A stretch of DNA of 40,051 nucleotides, from contig NZ_LN651373.1 in NCBI RefSeq assembly GCF_000826125.2, forward strand, positions 181,829 through 221,879, in the 5' to 3' direction. The stretch is from Bhargavaea cecembensis (GTDB taxonomy: Bacteria > Bacillota > Bacilli > Bacillales_A > Planococcaceae). Each line of letters begins with the position of its first letter. The first letter of the stretch is position 1. Position numbers and translations under genes: made by a program. This document shows, in pieces, positions 2,231-39,712 of this stretch. A model generated the notes under the pieces. It was not told where the DNA came from. It did no database searches and was given only the letters and a program-made list of their open reading frames with translations.

Positions 2231-2335
2231 GTCGCTTTCTTAACATTCAGGCTCGCTTTCTTAACATTCAGCGCGGTTTGCTTAACATTCGGGAGCCCTT
2301 TCTTAACATTCAGTCCGGTTTGCTTAACATTCGGC
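2231..2335 (+). repeat. 21-bp tandem array A1, TTAACATTC family, 5 units, forward
   Basis: The core TTAACATTC starts at 2240, 2261, 2282, 2303 and 2324, exactly 21 bp apart each time. It is preceded by CTTTC or TTTGC and followed by AG or GG. The other bases of each unit vary. The array fills the gap between the kinase gene and the first PepSY gene. The same unit occurs in reverse complement at 27665-27765. Confidence 0.95.
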
Positions 2336-2354
2336 GGCCCCGTCCTTCCCGGCA

Positions 2355-2386
2355 CTCAGCAATTTCTAATCTTCCCCCTGTATCAT
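2355..2386 (+). promoter_or_regulatory. Candidate response-regulator site and -10 of the first PepSY gene
   Basis: CTCAGC (2355) and CTAATC (2366) are direct repeats 11 bp apart, followed by a -10-like TATCAT (2381-2386). The 18-bp stretch CAATTTCTAATCTTCCCC at 2360-2377 recurs with one mismatch at 3668-3685, upstream of the second PepSY gene. This suggests both genes are controlled by the regulator encoded at 158-865. The link is inference. Confidence 0.45.
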
Positions 2387-2411
2387 GGATGGTAAGAAGG
2401 AGGAGATCGGC

Positions 2412-3233
2412 ATGGCGAAACCGAAATGGTTGCTGCCGGCGGGGCTAGGAGCAGCCGCCGCCATCATTCTCATCATCGTGGCGCTCACCGCATTTCGCGG
2501 CGGGGAAGAAGCGCTCGCAGCGGAAGACGTTGAGCAGAAGATCATCAGCATGTACGGCGGCGAGGTGAAGGACATCCAGCAGGACGGCAATGTCTACCGG
2601 GTTCAGCTGTCGCGCATCGACGGCGAATTCCTCGCCATCGTCGACTCCGACGGCGGTGCCATCATTTCGCTGGAAAAAACCGGGGACACCGAATTGATCC
2701 CCGAAGGAGACATCAAAGCGAAGCTCGCGGAACGCTACGGCGCCGAACCGGCCGGGCTCACATTGAAAGACGGCATTTATTCCGGCAAAGTAGAGAAGGA
2801 CACGCATATTACGGATGTGGAGATCGACGCATCCACCGGCGACATCATGAACGAAGAAGTCACCGACAAAGCGCCGGCCGAACAGGCGGAAGAACCGGCA
2901 GCCGCCGAAAAGCCGGCCGCGCCAAAACCGGACACGAACCAAAATCAAAGCAAGCAGAACCAGAATCAGAACGCCGGCAATCCAGGCGGCCAGACGGGCA
3001 ACCGCGGCAATCAAAACAGCAACAGCCAGCCCGCCAAAACCGTCCGGCTCACCGAAAACGAAGCCGCTGTCATCGCACTCCGCGAAGTCCGCGGCGAACT
3101 CGATGACGTCGACTACGAAGAATCCGACGACGGCGGCTACTACATCGTCGAAATCGAAGCCGGCGACATGGACGCCGAAGTCCAAATCCACGCCATCACC
3201 GGCCGCGTGATGTCCGTGCTGTGGGATGACTGA
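2412..3233 (+). CDS. Membrane-anchored PepSY-domain protein
   Basis: A 273-residue protein anchored by one N-terminal transmembrane helix (about residues 7-27), with the rest predicted outside the cell. A first PepSY-like module covers about residues 38-85 and a weaker one about 90-130. A Glu/Ala/Pro then Gln/Asn-rich linker of about 60 residues follows (about 140-200). The C-terminal PepSY domain starts at the ENEAAVIALREV segment and ends with the typical ITGRVMSVLWDD. PepSY domains are often proposed to inhibit or sense extracytoplasmic proteases, but the function here is not shown. The ATG at 2412 is preferred over an in-frame ATG at 2385 because AAGGAGGAGAT at 2397-2407 is placed to serve it. 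The upstream site it shares with the 3747 gene suggests co-regulation by the two-component system. Confidence 0.85.
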   Translation: MAKPKWLLPAGLGAAAAIILIIVALTAFRGGEEALAAEDVEQKIISMYGGEVKDIQQDGNVYRVQLSRIDGEFLAIVDSDGGAIISLEKTGDTELIPEGDIKAKLAERYGAEPAGLTLKDGIYSGKVEKDTHITDVEIDASTGDIMNEEVTDKAPAEQAEEPAAAEKPAAPKPDTNQNQSKQNQNQNAGNPGGQTGNRGNQNSNSQPAKTVRLTENEAAVIALREVRGELDDVDYEESDDGGYYIVEIEAGDMDAEVQIHAITGRVMSVLWDD

Positions 3234-3282
3234 CTGAAGAAGGGGCGCGGGGGCGTCCCTCTTGATTAGGGGGAAATCAATC

Positions 3283-3627
3283 ATGAACGTGGAACTGACG
3301 AGATTCCGGGTGAAGCCAGGCAAGTCGTCGGTCGTCGACGAATGGCTCCGATTCCTGAATGAGCATATGAGCGACGTGCTCATCACGCTTGAGGGGGAGA
3401 AAATGTGGGTGGAGACAATCTTCCGCGAAGAGCTGAATGGGGACGAATATTTGTACTGGTACTCCGTTCAAGGAGAAGGGGGCCAGGAAGTGGAACAATC
3501 CGACCACTGGATCGACAAGAAACACCTGGAGTACTGGGACGCCTGCATTGACCCCGACTTTAGGCCGGTCGACTTGAGAACCGAAGTCGTCATGATTCCG
3601 GAGAAGATCCGGGGAGCGATGAAGTAA
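3283..3627 (+). CDS. DUF6176-family hypothetical protein
   Basis: A 114-residue soluble protein with no signal peptide or membrane segment. It resembles DUF6176-family proteins, with segments such as RFRVKPGKSSVVDEW, VETIFREELNGDEYLYWYS and WIDKKHLEYWDACID. The aromatic-rich beta strands look like a dimeric alpha/beta-barrel (monooxygenase-like) fold, but no catalytic residue can be named and the function is unknown. The ATG at 3283 has AGGGGGA about eight bases upstream; an in-frame TTG at 3262 lacks a site. The gene separates the two PepSY genes and is followed by its own terminator, so it is probably not part of their regulon. Confidence 0.75.
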   Translation: MNVELTRFRVKPGKSSVVDEWLRFLNEHMSDVLITLEGEKMWVETIFREELNGDEYLYWYSVQGEGGQEVEQSDHWIDKKHLEYWDACIDPDFRPVDLRTEVVMIPEKIRGAMK

Positions 3628-3629
3628 GG

Positions 3630-3656
3630 AAGGGGCGCATCCGGCGCTCCTTTTTC
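3630..3656 (+). terminator. Rho-independent terminator of the DUF6176-like gene
   Basis: The stem AAGGGGCGC pairs with GGCGCTCCT around a short ATCC-containing loop and runs into five T residues at 3651-3655, directly after the stop codon at 3627. Confidence 0.8.
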
Positions 3657-3662
3657 GTCCCT

Positions 3663-3721
3663 CTCATCAATTTCTAACCTTCCCCTCACCACCGTCTCAC
3701 CTCAGCCGGATATAGTAGAAT
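3663..3721 (+). promoter_or_regulatory. Four 11-bp-phased direct repeats and -10 upstream of the second PepSY gene
   Basis: CTCATC (3663), CTAACC (3674), CTCACC (3685) and CTCACC (3696) are spaced exactly 11 bp apart, one helical turn. They are followed by a -10-like element, TATAGT (3711-3716) or TAGAAT (3716-3721). There is no good -35 box. Repeats on one DNA face upstream of a -35-less promoter are typical of OmpR-family activators. The likely binder, by inference, is the regulator at 158-865. Confidence 0.55.
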
Positions 3722-3746
3722 CAACACCGATCAGGAGGAGATTCAA

Positions 3747-4364
3747 ATGAGGAAGAGATGGATCGCGGTACCGGTTGCGGCGGGCGCGCTTGCCATCGGC
3801 GGCGTGGCGTTCGCGGCGAACAACGGGGAGCCGGGAGAACTGACGCTCGTCGATACGGCGCAGTCAAAAGTCATGCAGACAGCCGCCGACTGGATTTCCG
3901 CCGACGAAGCCAAGGACATCGCGATCGAGGCAGCGGGCGGCGGGGACATCCGCGAGCTCGAATTCGACCGCGGCGACCGGATGTACGAAATCGAACTGCT
4001 CATGGATCAAGGCGAAGCCGACATCGACATCGACGCCATCACCGGCGAAGTGCTGAAGCTGGAGTGGGATGACGACGGGGGCCAGGATGATTGGGACGAT
4101 GACTACGACAGTCATGAGGAACACAACCATCATTTCAATGAAGGTGAAGCCCCGGTCGCCAACCTGATCACACAGGAAGAAGCGACCAACATCGCCCTCG
4201 GCAAAGCCAGCGAGAACGCACGCGTGATCGAAATCGAACTTGACGATGACGACCGCTACCCGGTCTACGAGATGGAACTCCACGACGGCATGTTCGAATA
4301 CGACATCGACATCGATGCGCGCACCGGGAACATCGTGGAATTTGAAAAGGAAGAGGACGACTGA
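3747..4364 (+). CDS. Exported PepSY-domain protein with two PepSY repeats
   Basis: A 205-residue protein with an N-terminal signal or anchor segment (about residues 3-24) and a very acidic mature part. PepSY module one runs from SADEAKDIAIEAAG to about residue 110, where it reads DAITGEVLKLEWDDD. An Asp/His/Glu-rich linker (about 111-130) follows. Module two runs from TQEEATNIALGKAS to DARTGNIVEFEKEED. The many Asp and Glu residues could bind cations, but this is only a possibility. The ATG has a clear AGGAGGAG site at 3733-3740. It resembles YkoI/YkoJ-type proteins encoded beside the YkoGH-type two-component system and is likely a target of that system. Confidence 0.87.
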   Translation: MRKRWIAVPVAAGALAIGGVAFAANNGEPGELTLVDTAQSKVMQTAADWISADEAKDIAIEAAGGGDIRELEFDRGDRMYEIELLMDQGEADIDIDAITGEVLKLEWDDDGGQDDWDDDYDSHEEHNHHFNEGEAPVANLITQEEATNIALGKASENARVIEIELDDDDRYPVYEMELHDGMFEYDIDIDARTGNIVEFEKEEDD

Positions 4365-4378
4365 GTCTTTATGAAATA

Positions 4379-4402
4379 AGCTCCGCATCCGCGGAGCTTT
4401 TT
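4379..4402 (+). terminator. Rho-independent terminator of the PepSY gene
   Basis: The perfect stem AGCTCCGC/GCGGAGCT closes an ATCC loop and is followed by TTTTTC. It ends the first two-component/PepSY region. Confidence 0.9.
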
Positions 4403-4463
4403 CAATTCCGGCGGGTCGCATCCGGGCGAAGAATCCGCGGATTTTCTTCCCTGAAATCAAAAA

Positions 4464-4588
4464 GGGCCCTCGGCGAAATGCCGTGGGCCAAATACCTGCA
4501 TTCTCTAAAAGGGGGAAATAGAGAAGTGGGGTTGCTGTTATGTTACCCGGCTGTCCGAAATCTAATCATCTTTCGGAGAATTTTTTTT
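4464..4588 (+). ncRNA. Candidate structured leader or small RNA ending in a terminator
   Basis: Four successive hairpins can be drawn. The first, at 4465-4489, pairs GGCCC-T-CGGC with GCCG-T-GGGCC around a GAAAT loop. The second pairs TTCTCTA (4501-4507) with TAGAGAA (4519-4525). The third is a short GGGT/ACCC helix (4529-4532 with 4545-4548). The fourth is an intrinsic terminator, TCCGAAA (4554-4560) with TTTCGGA (4571-4577), followed by GAA and eight T residues. The element ends about 40 bases before the BceR-like start. This fits a riboswitch or attenuator with its own terminator, or a stand-alone small RNA. I could not match it to a known class, and no clear promoter precedes it. Confidence 0.45.
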
Positions 4589-4627
4589 GCCGGTCCGTTA
4601 AACTAAGGGGAAAAGGGGGCGGCGGAT

Positions 4628-5311
4628 GTGGAGATGACGGTGTTTCTGGTGGAGGATGATGTGTCGATTTTCCGGTCGGTGGAGGAGAAGCTCGGACAGT
4701 GGGGGCTGCGGGTGGCCGGGCCTCCGGATTTCCGCGAGGTGATGGCGGCGTTCGCGGAGGCGCAGCCGCATCTCGTGATCCTCGATATCGGGCTGCCGGC
4801 ATTCGACGGGTTTCACTGGTGCCGGGAGATCCGCGCGGTGTCGAACGTGCCGATCGTGTTCCTGTCGTCTCGCGACCACCCGATGGACCAGGTGATGGCG
4901 ATGAACATGGGCGCGGACGATTTCATCCAGAAGCCGTTCAACGCCGACGTGCTGCTCGCCAAAATCCAGGCGATCCTCCGCCGGACGTACTCCTACGGGG
5001 AAGAAAAGCCGGATGTCGTGGAATGGAGCGGAGCCGTTCTGGACTTGAAACGCGGCGCCATCCGCTCCGGCGGCACCGAGATCGAGCTCACCAAAAATGA
5101 GTTTTTCATCCTCGCCGTCCTCGTGGAATCGAAGAACGAAATCGTCTCGCGCGACGAGCTCATCCGCCGCCTGTGGGACGACGAGCGGTTCGTGAACGAC
5201 AATACGCTGACGGTGAACATCAACCGACTGCGTGCGAAACTCGGGGAAATCGGGCTTGGCGATGCGATTGTGACGAAGAAGGGCATGGGCTACATGGCGG
5301 TCTCGGAGTAG
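4628..5311 (+). CDS. BceR-like response regulator (OmpR family)
   Basis: A 227-residue OmpR-class regulator that strongly resembles Bacillus BceR, which activates peptide-antibiotic export genes. The receiver domain (about residues 3-115) has the acidic pair E9/D10, the acceptor aspartate in LVILDIGLP, and the BceR-type signatures FHWCREIR, VFLSSRDHP and GADDFIQKPF. The winged-helix domain contains ELTKNEFFIL and DNTLTVNINRLRAKL and ends GMGYMAVSE. GTG at 4628 is chosen because AAGGGGG lies eight bases upstream; the next in-frame ATG, at 4634, would be too far. The gene follows a structured RNA with a terminator. It is separated from its presumed kinase at 5651 by a 340-bp gap filled with 21-bp repeats, which is unusual for a bceRS pair. 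Confidence 0.92.
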   Translation: MEMTVFLVEDDVSIFRSVEEKLGQWGLRVAGPPDFREVMAAFAEAQPHLVILDIGLPAFDGFHWCREIRAVSNVPIVFLSSRDHPMDQVMAMNMGADDFIQKPFNADVLLAKIQAILRRTYSYGEEKPDVVEWSGAVLDLKRGAIRSGGTEIELTKNEFFILAVLVESKNEIVSRDELIRRLWDDERFVNDNTLTVNINRLRAKLGEIGLGDAIVTKKGMGYMAVSE

Positions 5312-5324
5312 CCGCGGCGTGCGC

Positions 5325-5605
5325 GGCGGATTGCTACCGACTCGTGAGGGATTGCCACCCACTCGAGTTGAATTGCCATCCACTCGGCCCGGATTGCTAC
5401 CGACTCGCAAGGAAAAGCTACCCACTCACGCCAAAAAGGTAACCACTCGTACAGACAGGCAGCTTGCCTGTACCCGAAAGCGGCTCACTCACGGTGAATT
5501 GCGGCTTGCTCGCACCCGAAAGCGGCTTACTCGCGACGAAATGCGGCTCACTCGCGGTGAGAAGCGGCTTACTCGCGTCCAAAAGCGGCTCACTCGCCCG
5601 ACTCC
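5325..5605 (+). repeat. 21-bp tandem array A2, 13 units in two sub-families, forward
   Basis: Six units of the type GATTGCTACCGACTCG have their ACTC core starting at 5340, 5361, 5382, 5403, 5424 and 5445. One degenerate unit (GCAGCTTGCC, from 5459) follows. Six units of the type GCGGCT(C/T)ACTCG then have GCGGCT at 5480, 5501, 5522, 5543, 5564 and 5585. Every step is 21 bp, and the two sub-families are in phase with each other. The array fills the gap between the BceR-like and BceS-like genes. All frames stay mostly open because 21 is a multiple of three, but I see no start with a ribosome binding site. Confidence 0.95.
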
Positions 5606-5650
5606 ACCCCGACGCCAACCCAAAACGCCCCACGGAAAGGAGGCCTTCCC

Positions 5651-6676
5651 ATGCTGATTCCCTACCTGACATCCCGTTTCCCCTGGATCCTGTTCTTTCT
5701 CGCCGCGCTGCTGCTCGCGGATCTCGTCATTTTCCTCGACAGCGGCATTCCGGCGGAGCTGGCGTCGGTCGTTTATTTCAATATGCTGCTCGTCGCCCTG
5801 TTCGCGCTCTTTCTGATTTGGCGGTTCCTGCGGGAGACGCGGCTGCTGCGGGAGGTCCGCCGGCTTTCCGGGGAGCCGCTCGGGGATTGGGAGGATTTGC
5901 TGCCTTCCGGGGCGCCCGGCTTGGACGGGCTCCTGACCGATCAGCTCGTGGAGATATCCCGGGCGCATCGCCGCGAGCTCGCCGCCGTGAAGGAGGCGCA
6001 AATGCTGGAAGCGGATTACACGGCGTCGTGGGTGCATGAGGTGAAGACGCCGCTGACGGCGATGAAGCTGATTCTCGATGAGCACCGGAAAGAGCCGGCG
6101 ATGCGGGCGCTCTCGGCGGAGTGGCTGCGGCTTCATTTGCTGATCGACCGGCAGCTGTACATGTCCCGGATGCCGTCGCTTGCGTCGGATTTCCTTCCGG
6201 AGACGGCGGGCGTCCGGTCGCTCGTCGCACCGGAAGTCCGGGAACTGGCGGCCTGGTGCATGGAGAAGGATCTCGCCGTGGAAATCGAAGGAGAGGACGC
6301 ACAAATCCGGACCGACGTGAAGTGGGCGCGGTTTGTCGTCCGCCAGATTCTCACGAACGCGGTGAAGTACAGCCCTGCAGGCGGCCAGATCCGCATCGGG
6401 ACCGGCCGTGATGAAGACGGCCATGCATTCATCCGGATCGAGGATGAGGGACCGGGCATCCCGGCCCATGACCTTCCCCGCATTTTCGAGAAAGGCTTCA
6501 CGGGCGGCGCCGGCCGGATCCACAACGCGGCGACCGGTCTCGGCCTGTATCTCGCGGACACCGTCGGCAGCCGGATCGGCATCGCATTCGGCATCCTGTC
6601 AGAGGAGGGCGGGGGCACTGCGGTGTTCTTGAGATTTGCCCGGGAGAATGAATTCGATGAGATATTAAAAAGTTGA
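5651..6676 (+). CDS. BceS-like intramembrane-sensing histidine kinase
   Basis: A 341-residue histidine kinase of the small intramembrane-sensing type. Two transmembrane helices (about residues 11-30 and 37-60) are joined by a loop of only a few residues, so no extracellular sensor domain exists. Kinases of this kind usually take their signal from a partner BceAB transporter. The H-box is SWVHEVKTPLTAMKL with H129. The N-box is NAVKYSPAG, followed by EDEGPGIP, IFEKGFTGGAG and ATGLGLYL. The ATG has GAAAGGAGG just upstream. No ABC transporter is adjacent; the only BceAB-like pair in the window lies about 14 kb downstream (20504-23219). That the two cooperate is inference. Confidence 0.9.
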   Translation: MLIPYLTSRFPWILFFLAALLLADLVIFLDSGIPAELASVVYFNMLLVALFALFLIWRFLRETRLLREVRRLSGEPLGDWEDLLPSGAPGLDGLLTDQLVEISRAHRRELAAVKEAQMLEADYTASWVHEVKTPLTAMKLILDEHRKEPAMRALSAEWLRLHLLIDRQLYMSRMPSLASDFLPETAGVRSLVAPEVRELAAWCMEKDLAVEIEGEDAQIRTDVKWARFVVRQILTNAVKYSPAGGQIRIGTGRDEDGHAFIRIEDEGPGIPAHDLPRIFEKGFTGGAGRIHNAATGLGLYLADTVGSRIGIAFGILSEEGGGTAVFLRFARENEFDEILKS

Positions 6677-6698
6677 GGAAATTATCCATATAATCGTT

Positions 6699-6740
6699 TT
6701 AAAAAAGGGGCAGTCCCAGAAAATGCAGGATGCCCCTTGA
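6699..6740 (-). terminator. Terminator downstream of glpT (minus strand)
   Basis: The inverted repeat AAGGGGCA (6705-6712) and TGCCCCTT (6731-6738) is followed on the minus strand by a run of T residues (the A run at 6701-6706). It may work weakly in both directions, because the BceS-like kinase converges on it. Confidence 0.65.
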
Positions 6741-6762
6741 AATATTTAAAAGCAAATGAATG

Positions 6763-6876: not shown

Positions 6877-6916
6877 GATGAATCGGCTATTCCAGCCTCT
6901 TTTCAAACAGGATCTG

Positions 6917-11390: not shown

Positions 11391-11490
11391 GCGAGTGTCA
11401 ACTTTAGGGCGACGAGTGTCAATTTTGGCAGGTTAGGTGTCAACTTTCGCGAAGCGGGTATGAACGTTCAGCGGACGAGTGTCAACTTGC
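11391..11490 (-). repeat. 21-bp tandem array A3, GAGTGTCAACTT family, 5 units, reverse
   Basis: GTGTCAA cores start at 11395, 11416, 11437, 11458 (degenerate, GTATGAACG) and 11479, all 21 bp apart. The unit is the reverse complement of AAGTTGACACTC in array A11 (39605-39712). It lies just after the deacetylase gene. Confidence 0.93.
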
Positions 11491-11524
11491 GTGAATGTGA
11501 GGGAGGAGCGCAGCCACATTCGCT

Positions 11525-11597
11525 CCGATGACACTCGAGGCCTCTCTGCTAACACTCACGTGCCCTGCGATGACACTCCCCATGCGCGAACACTCGC
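11525..11597 (+). repeat. 21-bp tandem array A4, (GATG/CTA)ACACTC family, 4 units, forward
   Basis: ACACTC starts at 11531, 11552, 11573 and 11590. The first two steps are 21 bp and the last is 17 bp. It faces array A3 in inverted orientation across about 35 bp. The remaining bases to the promoter at 11677 (about 11600-11676) contain a GC-rich inverted repeat, CCGGCCGCAG...CGCGGCCGGG, followed by a T-rich run, which may terminate the deacetylase transcript. Confidence 0.88.
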
Positions 11598-18712: not shown

Positions 18713-19921
18713 ATGAAATCATTATATACCCGGCTGTTCGGGCGCTACTGGAACCCGTACACCGCACTCATTGCGGCCGGCGTGCTCAGCGCGCTCTACT
18801 TCGGCCTGACCGGCACGGTCTGGGCGGTGACCGGCGAATTCACCCGGCTCGGCGGCCACATCCTGAACTTCTTCGGCGTCGACACGTCGGACTGGGCCTA
18901 CTTCGGCCTCGTTCACATGCAGGGGTCGTCATTCTCCCGGTCGGACGGCTGGATTGTCTGGGGCATGTTCATCGGCGCGCTCATCACCGTGCTGCTCTCG
19001 AACAGCTTCAAAATCCGTGTGCCGAAGCAGAAACGCCGGCTCTTCCAAGGACTGATCGGCGGCATCATCGCCGGCTTTGGCGCCCGGCTCGCCATGGGCT
19101 GCAACCTCGCCGCCTTCTTCACCGGCGTGCCGCAGTTCTCGATCCACTCGTGGATCTTCATCGTCGCCACCGGATTCGGCACGTACCTCGGCGCCCAGAT
19201 CACGAAAACGAAATGGTGGAAAGGGAAGCCGGCCCTCACGAAAGGGTCGGCCGTCACCAAAACGAGGGAAAAGCGGGTCATCCAGCCGTATGTCGGCGGC
19301 CTCGTGGCCCTCGCGTACAGCGTGCTCATCATTGTCTTCTTCGCCACCGGCAAGCCCCTGCTCGGCACGGCCGCCATATTCGGCGCCTTGTTCGGCATCT
19401 TGATCGAGCGCGGACAGATCTGTTTCACCTCGGCGTTCCGTGACCTGTGGCTCACCGGCCGCAGCCTCATGGGCAAGGCGATCATCCTCGCGATGGCCGT
19501 CTCGTCGGTGTTTACGATCTTCGTGATCGCCGTGTACGGCATGGAGCCGATCACCCAGATCGCTTCGCCGGGCACATTCGTCGGCGGCTTCCTGTTCGGG
19601 CTCGGCATCGTGCTTGCGAGCAGCTGCGAAACCGGCATGATGTACCGCCTCATGGAAGGCCAGGTTCTCTACCTCGTCGTCTTCGCCGGCAACATCATCG
19701 GCGTCACGCTGCTCGCCTACGCCTGGGACCACCTCGGCGTGTACGAACTGCTCGTGGCGAGCGGGGAGAAAGTCAACCTCGTGGCTACGATCGGTCCGGT
19801 CTGGGCGATCATCGCCACGCTCACGATGCTCGCCGCCTGCTGGGTGTTCGTCGACTACTGGGCCAAACACAAACGCTACCGCATGACGGTGAAAAGGGAG
19901 GAAAAGAAACTTGTCAGCTGA
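18713..19921 (+). CDS. YeeE/YedE-family sulfur transporter (TsuA-like)
   Basis: A 402-residue polytopic membrane protein of the YeeE/YedE family, whose structurally known member TsuA imports thiosulfate through conserved cysteines. Three conserved cysteines are visible: C130 in ARLAMGCNLAAFF, C237 in ERGQICFTSAFRD and C305 in ASSCETGMMYR, spaced in two homologous halves. About nine to ten hydrophobic segments can be counted. The ATG has AAAGGAG upstream. It overlaps a TusA-like gene by 11 bp, the usual TsuA/TsuB pairing. The exact substrate (thiosulfate or another sulfur or selenium species) cannot be read from the sequence. Confidence 0.88.
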   Translation: MKSLYTRLFGRYWNPYTALIAAGVLSALYFGLTGTVWAVTGEFTRLGGHILNFFGVDTSDWAYFGLVHMQGSSFSRSDGWIVWGMFIGALITVLLSNSFKIRVPKQKRRLFQGLIGGIIAGFGARLAMGCNLAAFFTGVPQFSIHSWIFIVATGFGTYLGAQITKTKWWKGKPALTKGSAVTKTREKRVIQPYVGGLVALAYSVLIIVFFATGKPLLGTAAIFGALFGILIERGQICFTSAFRDLWLTGRSLMGKAIILAMAVSSVFTIFVIAVYGMEPITQIASPGTFVGGFLFGLGIVLASSCETGMMYRLMEGQVLYLVVFAGNIIGVTLLAYAWDHLGVYELLVASGEKVNLVATIGPVWAIIATLTMLAACWVFVDYWAKHKRYRMTVKREEKKLVS

Positions 19922-24801: not shown

Positions 24802-24849
24802 ACACTATATGTTAGGCTATATGAGCGTTAACAACACTATATCTAGTAG
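24802..24849 (+). promoter_or_regulatory. Two NrdR boxes upstream of the ribonucleotide reductase operon
   Basis: ACACTATATGTTAGGC (24802-24817) and ACACTATATCTAGTAG (24834-24849) resemble the NrdR-box consensus. Their starts are 32 bp apart, three helical turns, which is the usual spacing for cooperative NrdR binding. NrdR represses nrd genes when (deoxy)ATP is plentiful. The promoter itself probably overlaps the first box. Confidence 0.8.
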
Positions 24850-24859
24850 TACGATGGAT

Positions 24860-25040
24860 CGGTACCGATCGCGGTTTAATAGGGAATCCGGAGAAGCCGG
24901 AGCTGTCCCCGCAACTGTGAACGCGGACGACCGCCGAAAAAGCCACTGTGGTGCAAGCCGCGGGAAGGTCGGCGGAAGGATGATGCGTGAGCCAGTAGAC
25001 CTGCCGGCCGTCGTGAAGCGACACTTTCTTCGGGGGTTGA
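24860..25040 (+). ncRNA. Cobalamin riboswitch upstream of nrd operon
   Basis: Conserved B12-riboswitch blocks appear in order. They are AATAGGGAA; GAAGCCGGAGCTG then CCCCGCAACTGT (about 24892-24918); AGCCACTGTG; GGGAAGGTCGGCGGAAGGA; and the B12 box GAGCCAGTAGACCTGCC (24989-25005). It is followed by a strong terminator at 25138-25184, so adenosylcobalamin should switch transcription of the downstream reductase genes off. The exact boundaries are approximate. Such control of a B12-independent reductase suggests the organism also has a B12-dependent class II enzyme. Confidence 0.9.
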
Positions 25041-25184: not shown

Positions 25185-25198
25185 GCGTCAGGAAAAAA

Positions 25199-25340
25199 GC
25201 GGCTTACTCGGGCCGGATTGCGGCTCACTCGGGAGTGAAAGCGGCTTACTCGTGAGGCAAAGCGGCTCACTCGAAAGTGAAAGCGGCTTACTCGAACACA
25301 AATGCGGCTCACTCGCGGCCCAAAGCGGCTCACTCGCCCC
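25199..25340 (+). repeat. 21-bp tandem array A5, GCGGCT(C/T)ACTCG family, 7 units, forward
   Basis: GCGGCT starts at 25199, 25220, 25241, 25262, 25283, 25304 and 25325, always 21 bp apart. The next base alternates between TTACTCG and TCACTCG (T, C, T, C, T, C, C). It belongs to the same sub-family as the second half of array A2. It lies in the transcribed leader between the riboswitch terminator and the reductase start codon. Confidence 0.95.
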
Positions 25341-25419
25341 GCCGCATGCTCCCGTCGGCAAAAAGCCACCCACTCATTCCCGCACACAACCGTTCCACCC
25401 ACCAAAAGGAGGAATCACC

Positions 25420-27664: not shown

Positions 27665-27765
27665 GGCGAATGTTAAGCAAATCGGGTTGGATGTTAAGCA
27701 AACTGCTGCGAATGTTAAGCAAATAGTTCCGAATGTTAAGCAAACAGTCACGAATGTTAAGCAAA
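27665..27765 (-). repeat. 21-bp tandem array A6, GAATGTTAAGCAAA family, 5 units, reverse
   Basis: Units start at 27668, 27689, 27710, 27731 and 27752, exactly 21 bp apart. The core is the reverse complement of the TTTGCTTAACATTC unit of array A1. The array fills the gap between the alpha-subunit and flavodoxin genes. Confidence 0.95.
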
Positions 27766-27806
27766 TACTGTGCTGAGAGGTCTCGATAAGGAGGGGGTGC
27801 TTTCAG

Positions 27807-28269: not shown

Positions 28270-28325
28270 GCGGGCAAGCTGCGCCGCGCCCGAGTGAGCC
28301 GCAATTGCACGCGAGTAAGCCGCAT
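28270..28325 (-). repeat. 21-bp repeat array A7, CGAGT(G/A)AGCCGC family, 2-3 units, reverse
   Basis: CGAGTGAGCCGC at 28291 and CGAGTAAGCCGC at 28312 are 21 bp apart. A degenerate copy (CGGGCAAGCTGC) lies at 28271. They are reverse complements of the A2/A5 unit. The array lies between the flavodoxin and beta-subunit genes. Confidence 0.85.
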
Positions 28326-28365
28326 TTCCGCGCTGCACCAACACCAACAAAGGAGTGACGCCATC

Positions 28366-31599: not shown

Positions 31600-31810
31600 G
31601 TGTCGGCTTTCGTAGGGTGAGTGTCATCGGAAGGCGTCCGAGTGTCATCGGAAGTGGGTCGAGTGTTATCGGAAGGCGTGTGCGGTCGGGAAAGTTATCG
31701 CATGTCCATGCACTTGAGAGAAGGGTGTGTTTGCAAGACGACGTGGTGAGTGTAATCGGAAGCAGGCCGAGTGTCATCGCAGGACGCGCGAGTGTGATCG
31801 CAAGGTCGCG
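31600..31810 (-). repeat. 21-bp tandem array A8, GAGTGTCATCGG family, 4 + 3 units, reverse
   Basis: GTGTC cores start at 31600, 31621, 31642 and 31663, then again at 31750, 31771 and 31792. Steps are 21 bp inside each block, and the blocks are offset by 3 bp relative to each other. The unit is the reverse complement of CCGATGACACTC found in A4 and A9. It fills the space between the converging small-protein and NERD genes. Confidence 0.92.
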
Positions 31811-32979: not shown

Positions 32980-33220
32980 CCCTCCGATGACACTCGCAGC
33001 CCGCGCGATAACACTCGCCCTCTCTCCGTTAACACTGGCGGCTTCTCCGCTAACACTCACGTCCCGCGCGCTAACACTCGCGACTTTTCCGACAACACGC
33101 CCCCGTCGCCACAACCTTCCCTTATCGCTAATACTTACTGCCCTCAGATGGCACTCGTAGCCTCTCCGATGACACTCACGCCCGATGCGCTAACACTCGC
33201 CCCTCTCCGATAACACTCGC
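32980..33220 (+). repeat. 21-bp tandem array A9, TAACACTCG family, about 12 units, forward
   Basis: ACACTC cores start at 32990, 33011, 33032, 33053, 33074 and 33095 (all 21 bp). A degenerate stretch follows (33111-33136), then cores at about 33131, 33151, 33172, 33193 and 33213 (steps of 20-21 bp). The bases before the core alternate between TCTCCG and CGCGCG types. The array ends just before the VOC gene. Confidence 0.93.
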
Positions 33221-33302
33221 CCCCCGCGTGCCAACCCCCTCACCCCCAAATGTTATCCCACCCCGCCCCAACGGGTATGATAGGGACAAGAAGAGGAAAG
33301 CG

Positions 33303-33746: not shown

Positions 33747-33766
33747 AAACCGATCAACACACCAGA

Positions 33767-33799
33767 GGCCATCCGCCGAGCAGACGGATGGCTTTTCTT
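33767..33799 (+). terminator. Rho-independent terminator of the VOC gene
   Basis: GCCATCCG pairs with CGGATGGC around CCGAGCAGA, followed by TTTTCTT. Confidence 0.88.
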
Positions 33800-33842
33800 C
33801 ATTTTGAAATCTCCCGTTCATCTTCCGTTCAACTTCGCCCCG

Positions 33843-33937: not shown

Positions 33938-33946
33938 GGGGATTCC

Positions 33947-35611
33947 ATGATTGTTTCGATTGTGCTGTTTATTTTGTTCAGCTTCATCAGCTACCGGCTG
34001 ATCGGGAGTGAAAATGTCCGGGGGAAGGCGGTGATCGCCTCCCTCTTTTCCCTCGTCTTCTCGAGTGCGGCGTACTACGTGTTCCATCTGCGGAGTGCCG
34101 GCCCGCAGACGAGGATTTTCTATTTTGACCATTACACGTTCCTGTACTTCATCACGCTCGTCGTCGTGTCGATGGGGTTTTCGCTCATCCTGGAGATGAT
34201 GTCGGGGCATGAGGAGGAACTGGAGGATGCGCCCGGTTTCTTCGGCCGGCTGAGGTATTTCTTTTCTTCCCGTCTCCGCTACTTGAATCTGCTGACGATC
34301 GTCTCAAAGAACGGCCTCTTGAAGAGCACGCTCCGGCCGGGCGGCGGGATCCGCAGCAGGGAGACGGCGGCCGCGTTCCGCAATACGCTTGAGAAGGCGG
34401 GCGGGATTTTCGTGAAGTTCGGCCAGTTCCTGTCGACGCTCGGACTTGTTCCCGGCGGAGTTCCGGGAAGAGATGTCGAAGCTGCAGGAACAGGTCGAGC
34501 CGGTCCCGGTCGATCAGATCCGCGAAGTTATCCGCGCGCAGCTCGGCCGTCCGGTGGATGAGGTCTTCCGCGAATTCGATGATGAGCCGCTCGCCGCGGC
34601 GTCGATCGCCCAGGTCCACCGGGCGACGCTGAAAAACGGCCGCCGGGTGATCGTGAAAGTGCTGCGGCCCGCGCTCCGCAAACAGCTGGCGGTCGACCTC
34701 AATATTTTAACGAGTTTCGCGGATCTTCTTGCCAGAAAAGCGGCGTGGGCCCGGCGGATCGGCATCAAGTCGCTGACGGAGGGGTTCATCCAGAATTTGC
34801 ACGAGGAAATCGATTTCTCCCATGAGTTCAACAACATCCGGCAGATGAAGAAGGAGGAGAGCCCGGACGTTTATATTCCGGTCGCGTACAAGGAGTATTC
34901 GACGCCGGATGTGCTCGTGATGGAGTATCTCGACGGCGTGAGCCTCAGCAAGGCCGGCCGGGTGCTGCACCGCGATCCGGAAGCCCGTGCCCGGCTCGCG
35001 GACGACCTGTTCCGCGAAATGCTCACCCAGATTTTTGAAAAGGGGCTGTTCCACGGCGATCCGCATCCGGGCAATATCCTGCTCCTGCGCGACGGCCAGC
35101 CGGCGTTCATCGACTTCGGGTCGGTCGGCCGACTGTCGGACATCCAGCGGAACGGTTTCAAATGGCTGCTCATCGGCATCATCCGCAGCAACGCCGACTC
35201 GATGGTCACCGGCGTGAAAAGCCTCGTCGAGAATAGTGATGAAATCGACACGAGAAGCCTTGAGCAGGCGCTCAGCCAGTTTCTCGCGGAGCACTCATTC
35301 GAAGGCGACATCCTCGACGAGATGGGCAAGGACCTGTTCGACATCATGGGCCGGTTCAGCCTGCAGTTCTACCCGGACGTCGCGACGGCATTCCGGAGCC
35401 TCATCATCCTGCAGGGCAGCCTGCAGACGGTCGACCCGGAATTCAACCTGGCGGACGTCCTCGATTCTTACATGAAGAGCATCCTGAAAATCGGCAATCT
35501 CAAGAAAACCGCGCTGGATTCGGTGAAGACGATCTGCTGAACCTGATCCCGATGCTGAAAGCTCTGCCGAAGCGGATCGACGGGATCACCCGGCAAGTGG
35601 AAAACGGCAAC
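33947..35611 (+). pseudogene. AarF/UbiB-family atypical kinase, two frameshifts and truncated C-terminus
   Basis: The reading starts with a membrane-embedded N-terminal segment (MIVSIVLFILFSFISYRL and two further helices) and reaches the UbiB motif VKFGQFLST. There the frame shifts: ACG-CTCGGAC replaces the expected ACG-CGC-TCG-GAC, a loss of two bases near 34438. The protein continues as LFPAEFREEMSKLQEQ in another frame, with the kinase-like motifs AAASIAQVHRATL, VIVKVLRP, VMEYLDGV, HGDPHPGNI and FIDFGSVG. A second shift near 35530 (one base missing before GATCTGCTG) leads to the tail DLLNLIPMLKALPKRID. The usual C-terminal transmembrane tail is missing: at about 35611 the frame passes directly into an MFS protein. 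UbiB proteins handle quinone or lipid intermediates. This copy looks inactivated unless the shifts are sequencing errors. Confidence 0.8.
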
Positions 35612-36669
35612 TTCACTCTCGGGTTCTTCACCCTTCAGGAATCGAAGGAAGAAGTGCTGTCGAAGATCGACTTCCTCGGCATCCTGCTCCTGTCGTTCTC
35701 GATCTTGAGCATCATGTTCGCGATCAACAACCTCGGACAGGGCAGCCTGCTCAACGCGAGCGTACTCGGCCTGCTCCTCCTCGGAGTCGCCATCTTCGCG
35801 GCGCTCATCGTCGTTGAAAAACGCAGTGAACAAAAACAGCAGATCGACCCGATTCTCCCGTACAGCCTGCTGCGCAAGACAACGTACTCAGTCACGATGA
35901 TCATGGCGCTCCTGTCCGGAACATTCATCGGCGCGATCATCTTCATCCCGTCGTTCGCCGAACAGATCCTCGGCATCCCGGCCGCCAAATCCGGCTACTG
36001 GATGACGCCGCTCGCCCTCGCATCTGGCATCGGCGCAGGCGGCGGAGGCTACTTCGTCGACAAGCAGGGCCCGGTCCGCACGCTCATCATGTCCGGGATC
36101 ATCTCGATCATCGGCTTCGGCGGACTCAGCCTCTTCACCGACACGAAAGTCACATTCATCATCTTCTCGGTCATCGCCGGCATCGGCTTCGGCTTCGTCC
36201 TCGGGGCACCGCTCACGGTCCTCACCTCGAACGCCGCCGGCACCCAGAAAGGCTCCGCGCTCGGCACCCTGAGCGTTGCGCGCCAGATCGGCCTCACCAT
36301 CTCGCCGACCGTCTTCGGTGCCATGATCCAGCGCGGCTTCAGCCAGATCGGCGACATCATCCCGGAAAAACTCCAGGAACACGGCGTCGACCCGGCCGCC
36401 ATGCCGCCCGGTTCCATGGAAAGCATCGAAGGCACCAACTACAGCGACATCCAAAGCGCCATCGCCAAAATCCCGTCGACGGACGTCCAGGACGCCCTCC
36501 GCGAAGCCTTCAGCGTCGCCGCGCACCGGGCGTACGAACCGATCTACATGACGACCGCCATCGCCGCCGTCCTCCTCATCCTCCTCGCCGTTCTGTTCAG
36601 GAAGAAGTTCCGTGCAGACGCCGCCGAGGATGCGGCGCGTGAGGCGGAGGCGCAATCCGGCCGGTTTAA
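35612..36669 (+). pseudogene. C-terminal half of a DHA2-type MFS drug transporter, fused to aarF remnant
   Basis: From the junction (GNFTLGF then FTLQESKEEV) the sequence reads as the second half of a fourteen-helix MFS exporter: KIDFLGILLLSFSILSIMFAI, RKTTYSVTMIMALLSGTF, ASGIGAGGGGYFVDKQGP, VLTSNAAGTQKGSALGTLS and a last helix before FRKKFRAD. The first half (helices 1-6) is missing and there is no native start, so this is a 5'-truncated gene joined to the end of aarF, most simply by a deletion. The frame has no proper stop and runs on through the terminator and antisense to the ABC-2 permease to 37363. The end given here is therefore approximate, at an out-of-frame TAA. Confidence 0.8.
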
Positions 36670-36686
36670 CCCCATCCAATCCATCC

Positions 36687-36719
36687 AAAAGAAGCGTTCG
36701 CACAGGCGAACGCTTCTTT
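36687..36719. terminator. Bidirectional terminator between converging genes
   Basis: GAAGCGTTCGC and GCGAACGCTTC are exact inverted copies around ACAG, with AAAA on the left and TTT on the right, so it can end transcripts from both strands. Confidence 0.85.
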
Positions 36720-36750
36720 CAATTCAATCCATCAATCCATCCGCCGCTTC

Positions 36751-37431
36751 TTATACACGACGACCGTCACGGCGACGGCGGCGACTGCCCAGGCGGCGAG
36801 GATCAGCAGGTTCCCCCGCGATCCCCGTTCCACTTTCCAGTCCTTCCCACACGGCGAGCAACTGCTCGCCGGGGAGCCAGTCGATGAGGGCGAGGATGGT
36901 TTCATTGGTGATCAGCGATTTGAACATGCCGGCCATTCCGAAGATGAGCATGACGGGCATGCCGATGATGCTCGTTTCCATGACGGTGCGGGAGAGCAGG
37001 CCGAGCAGCGTGCCGATGGAGAGGAAAGTGATGAGACCGAGGAAGATGCTGACGGCCGCCATCGGCAAAGAAGGCACCGTGAATCCCGCGAGGAAGACGC
37101 AAGCGATGATGATCAGCACGGTCGCCGTGCCGCTCAGCAGGCTTTTGCCGACCAGAATCTCAACAGTGCTTGCCGGCGACAGGAGCAGCCCGCGCAAGGT
37201 GTTCTTTTCCTTTTCCTCCGCGACCATCGCGGCCTGGACGAACGCACCGGCGATGACGAGCGCGAAGTTGATCGTGAAGGCGGCGAGTGCGGCGTTGCTT
37301 TCACCCATCCGGCCGAACACGGCGGCAAGCACGAGCGGGAAGGAGAGCGTGATGAGCACGTAGCCGTTGCGCTGCATGTCTTTCCAGTCTTTCATAAAAA
37401 TCGCATTCACGCGTTTCATTGAAAAAGTCAT
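36751..37431 (-). CDS. ABC-2 type transporter permease, frameshifted near the 3' end
   Basis: A membrane permease of an exporter, with helices at about residues 25-45, 50-75, 100-125, 130-150 and 160-180. The frame shown ends after 226 residues with an unnatural Arg-rich tail (ADPRRLGSRRRRRDGRRV). In a shifted frame the same DNA reads DWKVERGSRGNLLILAAW, then a complete last helix and KKRRMD, with a stop at 36732. Two bases seem to be missing near 36840 (GAAGGACTGG in place of GAAGGGGACTGG). The intact gene would span 36732-37431. It overlaps the upstream ATPase gene by 4 bp (ATGA). It is either damaged at its last helix or the site of a sequencing error. Confidence 0.8.
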   Translation of the reverse strand: MTFSMKRVNAIFMKDWKDMQRNGYVLITLSFPLVLAAVFGRMGESNAALAAFTINFALVIAGAFVQAAMVAEEKEKNTLRGLLLSPASTVEILVGKSLLSGTATVLIIIACVFLAGFTVPSLPMAAVSIFLGLITFLSIGTLLGLLSRTVMETSIIGMPVMLIFGMAGMFKSLITNETILALIDWLPGEQLLAVWEGLESGTGIAGEPADPRRLGSRRRRRDGRRV

Positions 37432-38276
37432 CCGAGTTTCCTCCCTGTGAGCTGGACGAACAAGTCGCCGAGCGTCGGTTCATTTGAGTGGATCGTGAGC
37501 AGTTCGCCGCTTTCCATGTAACCGGCAATTACGGCGGCCCCGTCGGCATTAGGCTCGACCGTCACCGTCTGCCGGTCCTTCAATAAAACCGAAATCGTCG
37601 GCCGGCCTTGGCCCGTCCTTAAGTTCTGCGGCGTATCGAAAAGCCGGATCTCCCCGTCGTGCAGGAACGCGACCCGGTCGCAGAGCGATTCGGCCTCATT
37701 CATGTCGTGCGTCGTCAGGAAGATCGTCGTCCCGGCGCGGTTGAGTTCTTTCAATCCTTCATGGATGTTCCGGGTGTTCACCGGGTCGAGCGCGGACGTC
37801 GGCTCGTCGAGGAACAGCAGATCCGGCTTGTGCAAAATCGCCCGCGCAAGCGTCACACGCTGTTTCATCCCTTTGGACAGCTTCTGGACGGGCGTCTTTT
37901 CCTCGCCCGTCAGGCTGACCATCTCGAGCGCTTCCGCGACCCGCCGGCGGTCCGTTCCATAGAGGTCTGCGTACAAGCCGAGGTTGTCGGCGATTGTCAG
38001 CCGGTCGTACAGACCGCTGTTGTCAGTGAGGATGCCGATGCGGCTCATACGCGCCGGGTCCTTCAATTGATCGACCGGCTCGCCGAACACCCGGACGTCG
38101 CCGGCTGTCGGCGCGAGCTGAGCGGTGAGGATCTTGATCGTCGTCGTCTTGCCCGATCCGCTCGGTCCGAGGAAGCCGATCGTCTCTCCTTTGCGCACAT
38201 TAAAATCCACATTTTTAAGCGCCGTTTTGTTTCCGAATGATTTGACGAGGCTGCGCACCTCGATGATGTTCTCCAT
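37428..38276 (-). CDS. ABC transporter ATP-binding protein (ABC-2 exporter partner)
   Basis: A 282-residue ATPase of the CcmA/DrrA-like group. Walker A is GPSGSGKTTT, the signature is LSKGMKQRVTLARA, Walker B is LLFLDEPTSALD and the switch histidine lies in LTTHDMNEAE. The C-terminal 70 residues form a regulatory extension. The start at 38276 (MENIIEVRSLV) has GGGGCGG upstream on the minus strand; upstream in-frame codons run through direct repeats and are rejected. It overlaps the permease gene by 4 bp. The LytTR-fusion gene directly upstream on the same strand is its probable regulator. Confidence 0.9.
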   Translation of the reverse strand: MENIIEVRSLVKSFGNKTALKNVDFNVRKGETIGFLGPSGSGKTTTIKILTAQLAPTAGDVRVFGEPVDQLKDPARMSRIGILTDNSGLYDRLTIADNLGLYADLYGTDRRRVAEALEMVSLTGEEKTPVQKLSKGMKQRVTLARAILHKPDLLFLDEPTSALDPVNTRNIHEGLKELNRAGTTIFLTTHDMNEAESLCDRVAFLHDGEIRLFDTPQNLRTGQGRPTISVLLKDRQTVTVEPNADGAAVIAGYMESGELLTIHSNEPTLGDLFVQLTGRKLG

Positions 38277-38354
38277 GTTTCCGCCCCTTTTCTCTGTTGT
38301 CCCTTGCTTGACTCCAATGTACCGCGGATTCGGCAGGAACGCAGTAACATCAAG

Positions 38355-38430
38355 GCGAAAGGAGCAGAGGGAAGGGTGAACGGAGCATAGGACGGCTGAA
38401 CGGAGCACCATTTCAGGCCGATGGAGCGCC
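38355..38430 (-). repeat. Tandem 20-21-bp direct repeats A10, candidate LytTR operator
   Basis: On the minus strand, CTCCATCGG, CTCCGTTCAG, CTCCGTTCAC and CTCCTTTCGC recur with steps of 21, 20 and 21 bp (plus-strand GGAGC starts near 38361, 38382, 38402 and 38423). TCCGTTCA fits the consensus of LytTR-domain binding sites, nine-base repeats with about 12-base spacers. The array lies between the LytTR-fusion gene and the ABC operon. Confidence 0.65.
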
Positions 38431-39522
38431 CTAGATGCCGAGAAACGTCTTCAATTCGGCGTACTTTCCCTTGGAGAGCGGAACCGAGCTTTTATTTGGG
38501 TCTTCGAGGATCAGGCTATAGCTGTTCCGCGTCCACGTGATCACCTCGCGCACACGCTGCAGGTTCACGAGATACGACCGGTGGCACCGGAAAAATCCGA
38601 ACGGCTCGAGCCGTCCGGCCAGATCGCCGAGCGTGAGCGCACACGGGAAGGTCTCGCCGTTCACATGCAGCATCGACACCCCGTCGGTGCTCTCGACGAA
38701 CACGATCTCCGTCGGGTCAAATAAAATCAGCTTGTCGTTCACCTTCGCCGGCACCTTGTCGAACCGGATCTGGAAGGAGGACGGCCCGTCTGCCGCATCC
38801 GGGGTTTCTGCCGCGTCCGGAGCGGGGGCCGGCGGCACTTCTTCCACCGGGTGCTCTTCCTCTTCGGCCGCCGGATCCTCTTCTGGCGCGAGGTCGATCC
38901 GCTTCAGCCCGTCCCGGTTCAGCCGGTAGACGGTGTCGGTCATTGCGACGGCGTTCTCGAGGTTGCTCGTCGTCAGCAGCACCGAGCCGCCCGCCGCGGT
39001 AAATTCTCCGAGTACGCGCTGCAGGATGACGCGGCTCTCGATGTCGAGGTTCTGCTCGGGCTCCTCGAGCAGCAGCAGTTCCGGCCCGTGCACGATCGCC
39101 CGCGCCAGCTGCAGCCGCCGCTTCTCGGAACGGGAAAGCTTCCCCGACCGGACGGCCGTCTTGTCGGCGAGCCCGACCCTCCGGAGCAGCTCATCAACCG
39201 GCGCCCCGCCCCCGTGCAGATCCCGGAACAGGCGCAAATACTCGGCCGGCGTCAGCCGCTCGTACAGCTCATCGTCGAGCAGGAGCACCCCGATCCGCCC
39301 GGAAAGCTCCCGGAACCGGCCCGCCACCGGCTCTCCGCCGAACCGGACCTCTCCGTGAAGCAGCGGCTCCATCCCCGTCACGAGCCCGATCAGCCGGCGC
39401 CCCGCCTCATGATCGCACTGCACCGCCGCAAAACTCCCCGCCTCCACGCTCAAATCAAACCGGGGAAACACCACCGCATTCCCCGCCGACTTCTCTACTT
39501 GCCGAAACTCCAGCCTCGTCAT
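38431..39522 (-). CDS. LytTR-family regulator fused to a degenerate ABC ATPase domain
   Basis: A 363-residue protein with two parts. Residues about 1-215 form an ABC-ATPase-like domain. Walker A is lost (VQCDHEAGRR in place of GxxGxGK), the signature is altered (KLSRSEKRRLQLARA), and the Walker-B region LLLLEEPEQNLD is recognisable. An acidic Pro/Glu-rich linker follows (about 217-258). Residues about 262-360 are a LytTR DNA-binding domain (IVFVESTDGVSMLHVNGETF, FFRCHRSYLVNLQRV, VPLSKGKYAELK). There is no receiver domain. The start at 39522 (MTRLEFRQVEK) follows AGGGGG. It probably senses the adjacent ABC exporter and regulates it. Upstream in-frame codons are repeat translation from array A11. 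Confidence 0.85.
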   Translation of the reverse strand: MTRLEFRQVEKSAGNAVVFPRFDLSVEAGSFAAVQCDHEAGRRLIGLVTGMEPLLHGEVRFGGEPVAGRFRELSGRIGVLLLDDELYERLTPAEYLRLFRDLHGGGAPVDELLRRVGLADKTAVRSGKLSRSEKRRLQLARAIVHGPELLLLEEPEQNLDIESRVILQRVLGEFTAAGGSVLLTTSNLENAVAMTDTVYRLNRDGLKRIDLAPEEDPAAEEEEHPVEEVPPAPAPDAAETPDAADGPSSFQIRFDKVPAKVNDKLILFDPTEIVFVESTDGVSMLHVNGETFPCALTLGDLAGRLEPFGFFRCHRSYLVNLQRVREVITWTRNSYSLILEDPNKSSVPLSKGKYAELKTFLGI

Positions 39523-39604
39523 GATGCATCCCCCTGTTGTCGTCGTCTGAATTCTTTCCTTTAAGTGTAATGAAAGGAGGGGGGCGGGGCAATAGCTGGC
39601 GGGT

Positions 39605-39712
39605 GTCTGAGCGAAGTTGACACTCGCATCCCGGAAAGTGACACTCGGGCGGATGAAGTTGACATTCAGGCGGCTGAAGTTGACACTCGCCGCGCTGAAG
39701 TTGACACTCATT
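39605..39712 (+). repeat. 21-bp tandem array A11, AAGTTGACACTC family, 5 units, forward
   Basis: GACA(C/T)TC starts at 39619, 39640, 39661, 39682 and 39703, exactly 21 bp apart. The core is the reverse complement of array A3. It occupies the divergent region between the LytTR-fusion gene and cwlJ. Confidence 0.95.

Follow-up and report, generated by a model that had tools for sequence, protein, structure and literature searches.

What are the short tandem repeats that recur between the genes of a 40,051-nucleotide stretch of a Bhargavaea genome (assembly GCF_000826125.2, contig NZ_LN651373.1, positions 181,829 to 221,879; hereafter the window)? An initial annotation had reported at least 11 arrays with ~65–70 units of 21 bp, lying solely between genes, and had suggested that they form one diverging family. 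Herein, we describe these arrays across the 3.16 Mb window genome (G000) and its relatives. Each unit consists of an asymmetric core of 12–15 bp and a free spacer of 6–9 bp. The step is fixed, the cores are lineage-specific, and different cores occupy one orthologous place in different species. The arrays have no strand preference relative to their flanking genes and are rare in gaps between divergent genes. The best reading that we can offer is that they are phased sites for rapidly evolving proteins that would bind side by side, and we give this reading slightly less than an even chance.

A fixed step and a unit of core and spacer

Confinement to the window would have refuted the initial annotation, but the arrays extend well beyond it, and the phenomenon is larger than first described. 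Across G000, pairs spaced by 21 bp numbered 51 for GCGGCTYACTCG and 204 for NACACTC, with 0 in the control for both. Autocorrelation of the window and 20 further stretches, mostly picked near known matches (440 kb in all), gave 89 regions at lag 21, 72 at its harmonic, lag 42, and 0–11 at the remaining lags between 10 and 60. Another 20 stretches (400 kb), whose coordinates were picked without regard to matches but of which 17 fall in contig 3, gave 61 regions at lag 21, 48 at lag 42, and 0–11 at the other lags from 12 to 42. Extrapolating from these 61 regions per 400 kb, we estimate a total of ~300–400 arrays in G000; the estimate subtracts by eye five assembly duplicates and at least three protein-coding regions, and long arrays are split into several regions in it. 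The assembly holds many exact direct duplications of 0.8–1.5 kb that abut one N or runs of N (L043–L062; e.g., L054:5258-7280 and L052:2548-4916). These are probably unmerged contig ends, and arrays are among the duplicated sequence.

Twenty core patterns, derived from the same arrays that they count, matched 584 sites in 822 kb, and 488 of these had a neighbor 20–22 bp away; the reversed sequence gave 23 matches. Fifteen patterns are well supported, while L, P, Q, R, and S rest on 0–2 phased sites each, and for R the control had more matches (4) than the data (2). Core-to-core steps of up to 30 bp were exactly 21 bp in 595 of 628 cases, a count taken from arrays selected by lag 21, in which overlapping flanks double-count some units and protein-coding regions are included. 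A pattern was present in 126 of 136 non-redundant lag-21 regions, and only two regions carried two patterns at two or more copies each; by eye, the ten regions without a pattern comprised seven that were coding-like and three that resembled degenerate arrays. Higher-order patterns of 42 bp with repeated spacers were seen in many arrays. The cores are not palindromic: 11 of 15 had no stem of 3 or longer, three had a stem of 3, and one had a stem of 4, which does not exceed shuffled cores save for one exception at a fraction of 0.07.

A circular, two-strand alignment of array profiles from 129 G000 regions yielded a common skeleton led by GARTG, with a score of 455 against 194 ± 3 (maximum 201) in a column-permuted control. 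Twenty regions of other Bhargavaea (111 vs. 45 ± 2) and 67 regions of other genera (187 vs. 111 ± 4) each aligned on a skeleton of their own. The common skeleton speaks for one diverging family, as had been proposed, but cores such as AACGTTATCTTTATC or AATCGTTCGATTC have little in common with the rest, and the different cores at one orthologous place also count against it. In appearance, some cores resemble recombined halves, with AACGTT bearing differing ends and CACTCG bearing differing beginnings.

In the window itself, repeats were present at all 11 reported places. Core patterns matched 67 times in and around them, and four of these matches were due to chance or to double counting between neighboring places. 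The patterns miss variant units, such as one of the five at 27666–27766, and the true total is ~62–66, so that the reported arrays stand with nearly the reported number of units. Nearly all steps had been described as exactly 21 bp; most are, but steps of 17, 19, 20, 22, and 38–50 bp also occur. Tandem Repeats Finder assigned a period of 20–22 to most of the 11 places, and autocorrelation of the window gave 10 merged regions at lag 21, seven at the harmonic lag 42, and 0 or 1 at every other lag from 6 to 60. The weak members are 28270–28325 (two units), 38355–38430 (three to four imperfect units of a rare core), and 11391–11490 (degenerate). The suggestion that all reading frames stay open had to be abandoned, with 0–5 of the six frames open per array. 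The repeats of the window are as follows.

2238..2334, plus strand: array, family C core CTTAACATTC; 5 units, steps all 21
5330..5449, plus strand: array, family O core GCYACCSACTCG with variants; 6 units, steps all 21
5477..5596, plus strand: array, family D core AAAGCGGCTYACTCG; 6 units, steps all 21
11391..11489, minus strand: degenerate array, family B core AAGTTGACACTCG read on the minus strand; 4–5 units
11525..11596, plus strand: array, family A core CGATGACACTCG; 4 units, facing the array at 11391..11489
25196..25336, plus strand: array, family D core AAAGCGGCTYACTCG; 7 units, in the nrdE leader downstream of the terminator
~25360–25375: extra single unit of a different core, beside the array at 25196..25336
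27666..27766, minus strand: array, family C core CTTAACATTC on the minus strand; 5 units, in the gap between nrdE and an nrdI-like flavodoxin gene
28290..28327, minus strand: pair of family D units; 2 units
31618..31676, minus strand: array, family A (CGAGTGTCATCGG on the plus strand); 3 units
31748..31805, minus strand: array, family A; 3 units, same strand as the array at 31618..31676
32985..33222, plus strand: array, family A (core YTAACACTCG and variants); ~10 recognizable units, with phase breaks and steps of 19–21, 38, and 42
38352..38430, minus strand: rare core (GGCTGAACGGAGCA on the plus strand); 3–4 imperfect units, steps ~20–22
39614..39709, plus strand: array, family B core AAGTTGACACTCG; 5 units, in a gap between divergent genes

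Facing pairs of arrays, tens of bases apart and with the same or different cores, were seen in the window (11391–11597) and at L080:13481-13702, L079:5468-5660, and L084:14056-14257.

Lineage-specific cores at orthologous places

Exact pairs of cores at 21 bp were counted in ten genomes, eight of the Bhargavaea group (G000 and G003 among them) and two other family members, G016 and G023; the G000 counts include some assembly duplicates. Pairs of GAGTRAGCCGC and of ATAAAGATAACG numbered 64 and 40, respectively, in G000 and 0 in the nine other genomes. Conversely, GAATGACGAAAC had no pairs in G000 and G003, 4–30 in each of the other six Bhargavaea genomes, and none in G016 and G023. For GARTGTTAAG, there were 62 pairs in G000, 38 in G003, 16 in G002, four in G005, two in G007, one in G006, and 0 in the other four genomes. 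The cores are thus specific to lineages.

The same holds at single orthologous places. The leader of nrdE, extending from the terminator to the ribosome-binding site, was read by eye in seven genomes. It holds seven units of AAAGCGGCTYACTCG in the window, and units of a TTCGCGNCNGCA-type core in B. cecembensis (G005; ~13), sp. 331 (~6), G007 (3), and B. ginsengi (2). A third core, present as a few units in B. beijingensis, has only its CACTC end in common with the window core, and Edaphobacillus has no units. The leader therefore ranges from 0 to ~13 units with three different cores and a step that is always 21, showing that the word can change without loss of the place or the step. In the gap between nrdE and nrdI, 1–5 units of related cores were found in all eight Bhargavaea genomes, differing in number by whole units while the cores persist; the units of Edaphobacillus are, by eye, degenerate. 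A cobalamin riboswitch (24842–25022; E 1.4e-27) lies upstream of the class I ribonucleotide reductase genes in the window, and the leader array sits between its terminator and nrdE.

Orthologous arrays were aligned between species, and a column counted as core if the core was visible in at least one of the two sequences. The first species pair differed at 11/146 core, 19/82 spacer, and 60/374 flank positions, the second at 8/96, 30/54, and 51/181 (Fisher tests were run for both), and the third at 11/84, 22/45, and 49/190. Third codon positions of nrdE are 62–71% identical between the compared species, so divergence of the spacers comes as no surprise, whereas conservation of the cores does. 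Across most of the aligned orthologous pairs, the cores changed more slowly than the spacers and the flanks.

To describe the taxonomic range, 80 named loci around nrdE were scanned for lag-21 and lag-20 regions. Lag-21 regions were found in 4/4 loci of Bhargavaea, 9/10 of Psychrobacillus (with FJAT-22090), 10/23 of Sporosarcina, 4/8 of Lysinibacillus, 2/4 of Paenisporosarcina, and 2/6 of Domibacillus (low-complexity or weak by eye). None were found at the loci of Edaphobacillus (0/1), Kurthia (0/4), Viridibacillus (0/2), Rummeliibacillus (0/1), a Storch isolate (0/1), and other Bacillaceae (0/16). Arrays of similar look with a 20-bp step occur in Sporosarcina and Paucisalibacillus (L110:4014-4646, L111:4366-4668, L172:883-1169). 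Among 14 stretches of 20 kb from seven Bhargavaea genomes, eight carried arrays, at least one per genome, and a ninth held only a coding-like region. Six other family members were sampled by one 20-kb stretch each, which can miss arrays; G016 and G023 had arrays, and none were seen in the other four. In 40 further stretches of family or class members, again one per genome and able to miss arrays, nothing beyond low-complexity sequence was found at lags 19–23. The 21-bp arrays of G016, a family member with 41% GC, are very long (L095:11199-11912 and 18854-19901, the longer with ~50 units) and have a TTCGTGCGGATAC-type core. A class member outside the family has a possible 18-bp array of core and spacer (L269:2484-2615).

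Gene context and the putative reader of the cores

Genes were called with our own codon-usage gene caller, which is unvalidated and underlies the analyses of context, strand, paralogs, and neighbors. The claim that arrays lie solely between genes held for 70 of the 80 non-redundant lag-21 regions in a first sample; at least four of the remaining ten resemble ordinary repetitive protein-coding sequence. Where both neighbors were called (68 regions), the flanking genes were tandem in 42 cases, convergent in 24, and divergent in two. These statistics count neighboring arrays as independent, and a gap-based test, restricted to gaps of at least 200 bp without N, counts gaps instead. In the full G000 sample, arrays occurred in 53/118 tandem, 17/26 convergent, and 4/31 divergent gaps, i.e., in 70/144 tandem or convergent gaps vs. 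4/31 divergent ones (p = 0.0002). The window has a counter-example at 39614–39709. In tandem gaps, the strand of the array relative to the flanking genes was split 23:24, and 21:21 in an earlier count that drops arrays with an alignment score below 1.5. Many arrays sit in operon gaps or between a stop codon and a terminator and are, therefore, probably transcribed. Folding of 12 strands of six arrays gave z scores from −2.4 to +0.9, with 10 of the 12 within −1.8 to +0.9. Because there is no strand preference, arrays are rare in divergent gaps, and no RNA fold is consistent, the arrays probably act as DNA rather than as RNA.

According to the reading that we favor, an array would be a row of asymmetric putative binding sites of 12–15 bp, spaced by about two turns of the helix. 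A sequence-specific DNA-binding protein would load on them in several copies, side by side on one face of the DNA and probably cooperatively. The core would be the site, and the spacer would merely set the distance. Units would be gained or lost in 21-bp steps, most likely via unequal exchange or slippage. If binding specificity shifts fast, lineages would come to use different cores, a new core would spread to many places, and an old place would be refilled with a new core. The conserved cores beside free spacers point to something that reads the core, and a step that stays constant although species differ in the word hints at a fast-changing DNA-binding partner. Proteins that bind side by side are the simplest such reader, and a guide-based or two-part reader may serve instead of a plain protein. 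The results above show the fixed step, the division of the unit into core and spacer, the slower change of cores in most aligned orthologous pairs, their lineage specificity and turnover at one orthologous place, the indifference to strand, and the scarcity in divergent gaps. From these we infer that the reader is a protein, that its binding is cooperative, and that its role is chromosomal, in structure or in damping of transcription at gene ends, rather than one of ordinary promoter control.

Several observations weigh against phased protein sites. No binder was found. In 699 G000 proteins, which represent roughly a quarter of the genome, we saw no expansion of any unusual DNA-binding family. 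The main puzzle is that ~15 cores would seem to need several readers, yet no such expansion accompanies them. Lag-20 regions occur in Sporosarcina (5), Paenisporosarcina (1), and Paucisalibacillus (3) at the 80 nrdE loci; since some relatives carry 20-bp arrays, two exact turns are not a universal rule. Three orthologous pairs involving L082, whose row is partly misaligned (in A2), were unclear or contrary, with differences at 18/65, 11/43, and 21/65 core positions vs. 47/119, 55/148, and 36/147 flank positions; in the third, the core changed more than the flank. Finally, two of the 12 folded strands had z scores below −2. The largest paralog groups among the 699 proteins were ordinary (20 ABC transporters, seven response regulators, and seven histidine kinases). 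The neighbors of the longest sampled arrays were likewise ordinary, with no cognate gene among them, and HTH_21 counts in 41 genomes do not track the presence of arrays.

One candidate reader lies in the window. P0001 (29472–30200) is the front half of an IS3-type transposase, with helix-turn-helix parts and without the catalytic half, and it matches positions 1–185 of 369 of the IS3 transposase profile. Each of eight Bhargavaea genomes contains a single close relative (74–100% identity), which adjoins nrdF in six of the eight, and P0001 looks domesticated. The interval between nrdF and this relative is ~7 kb longer in B. cecembensis (G005) and G006 (L083, L084), owing to DNA that the other compared Bhargavaea loci lack. 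The presence of relatives throughout the genus and two possible DNA-binding parts, which would suit a bipartite core, make P0001 a lead. However, it is a single protein facing ~15 cores; elsewhere among 61 genomes only weak transposase matches were found, though arrays occur outside the genus; and the gaps flanking its gene have no array in the genomes compared at the nrdE–nrdI locus. That P0001 reads the arrays is thus highly improbable. An RNA element of untranslated regions, of the kind proposed for the TAACTGA repeats discussed below and with a part in the control of decay, termination, or translation, would agree with the probable transcription of many arrays and with the two strands that fold below −2. 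Against it stand the even strand split, the ten unremarkable folds, the lack of palindromes, and the absence of any Rfam match over the arrays (the window gave only the riboswitch and three weak matches elsewhere), which make such an element very unlikely.

Arrays may also be selfish satellites, which spread by themselves or via the enzyme of a mobile element, whose recognition word would be the core, and which settle at the sites of least harm, such as gene ends and operon gaps, with no role for the host. Tolerated insertions would fit the avoidance of divergent gaps and the indifference to strand, and whole families are confined to one species. Nevertheless, a passive copy should lose core and spacer equally, whereas cores persist next to spacers that have diverged, and in most of the aligned pairs they changed less than the flanks did. 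Matches to the Y1 transposase (PF01797) were found in none of the eight Bhargavaea genomes and, among array-bearing relatives, twice in G016 and not in G023. Nor was an array-like trace found in the viral, plasmid, and phage searches made: two core patterns matched 7 and 29 viral stretches, which by eye are microsatellites or repeats that are mostly uniform and often coding, none forming a clear array of core and free spacer, and one array searched against plasmids and against phages had no match. IS21 ends start with TG; as a test of such ends, IstB-family matches are uninformative because they occur in 61 of 61 genomes (weakly in G000, best E 4.4e-8). We consider selfish spread unlikely. A different origin would be manufacture, in which an enzyme with a ruler mechanism adds units of fixed length, each comprising a templated core and a spacer that is either untemplated or captured. 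The process would bear some resemblance to CRISPR adaptation or to the addition of telomeres, and conserved cores would reflect manufacture and not selection. The fixed step with cores that vary between arrays and species, the seemingly free spacers, and the nearly strict rule of one core per array (exceptions in 2/136 regions) are what it predicts. Yet orthologous cores persist between species with 67–71% identity at nrdE third codon positions, so that maintenance after manufacture would be needed, repeated spacers in the 42-bp pattern suggest ordinary unequal exchange, and there is no candidate enzyme; we find manufacture quite improbable. Equally hard to credit is neutral slippage, with apparent cores that merely reflect recent common origin. 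It would account for the 42-bp patterns and for the varying number of units between species, but not for one core that recurs in many separate arrays with unrelated spacers, or for a lag spectrum concentrated at 21 and its harmonic.

Returning to phased protein sites, a broader proposal, which we hold more tentatively and regard as possible though with the balance tilted against it, is that of a bacterial satellite system. The place and the 21-bp ruler would be inherited, and the word would be replaced across a lineage, driven by a fast-evolving putative DNA-binding protein or guide. Such a system, occupying roughly half of the longer non-divergent gaps in a single Bhargavaea genome and present in several genera of Planococcaceae, would correspond to fast-evolving satellite DNA or to the VANC-target repeats of plants. 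If this is true, free-living bacteria keep hundreds of ordered DNA sites whose geometry is conserved and whose sequence is replaceable, and they would offer a bacterial model for satellite turnover and for the coevolution of DNA words and their readers that is small enough for deletion tests.

Comparison with known systems

Although 70 of the 144 sampled tandem or convergent gaps of at least 200 bp contain an array, the open-access papers searched describe none. We set the arrays apart as a new kind because the tests of membership in the CRISPR, REP/RAYT, TAACTGA-type, and Rfam families failed, in keeping with the initial annotation, which knew of no described element of this kind, and because the open-access literature (which leaves subscription papers and preprints outside its scope) yielded no description. 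As the claim rests on these two grounds, a description may exist elsewhere.

Clustered regularly interspaced short palindromic repeats (CRISPR) have repeats of ~23–50 bp and unique spacers of ~25–45 bp. Repeat and spacer alternate here too, but the distinction from CRISPR drawn at the outset stands: with a core of 12–15 bp and a step of 21, spacers of 6–9 bp are far too short, and there are many repeat types per genome. No cas genes appeared in Pfam scans of 18 window proteins, although no search was aimed at them. Plasmid iterons are phased direct repeats of similar length, ~20–22 bp, bound side by side by an initiator, usually in one origin array near the initiator gene. The present arrays differ in being chromosomal, in numbering hundreds, and in having many cores; ordinary genes flank the longest sampled arrays, and the one array compared with plasmids had no match, although initiator families themselves were not searched for.

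Repetitive extragenic palindromic (REP) sequences and REPINs are short, dispersed, and extragenic, with several groups per genome, and are palindromic and tied to a Y1 transposase, RAYT (PMC3116915). The arrays share with them the short, dispersed, extragenic repeats and the several groups in one genome; without palindromic cores, and with PF01797 in 0/8 Bhargavaea genomes, they are not of this type.

The TAACTGA heptamers are direct repeats of Beggiatoaceae, Cyanobacteria, and Bacteroidetes. They form many lineage-restricted intergenic sets whose binder is not known. Their 7-bp unit has the same sequence even in distantly related lineages, and the repeats usually lie immediately upstream of a start codon and share one orientation (PMC4679880). 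The likeness lies in the many short direct-repeat sets between genes in some lineages. The arrays here, however, include a free spacer in a unit of 21 bp, use many cores that vary from species to species, favor neither strand, and are few in divergent gaps. A 7-bp unit is contradicted by 0 regions at lag 14 vs. the 89 at lag 21 in 440 kb and by none at lag 7 (window only), and a single orientation toward the downstream start codon by the strand counts of 23:24 and 21:21. VANC-target repeats of Arabidopsis VANDAL transposons are noncoding tandem repeats with short motifs. Each set of these repeats, which shrink, grow, and diverge rapidly, is read by its own sequence-specific protein (PMC10398659). 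They belong to plant transposons that encode the reader, whereas the arrays lie in bacterial chromosomes with a fixed 21-bp step, no encoded reader found, and no tie to a transposon. In conclusion, the TAACTGA repeats are the nearest bacterial case found in print and the VANC-target repeats are the nearest in behavior; neither is of the same kind as the 21-bp arrays of Bhargavaea.

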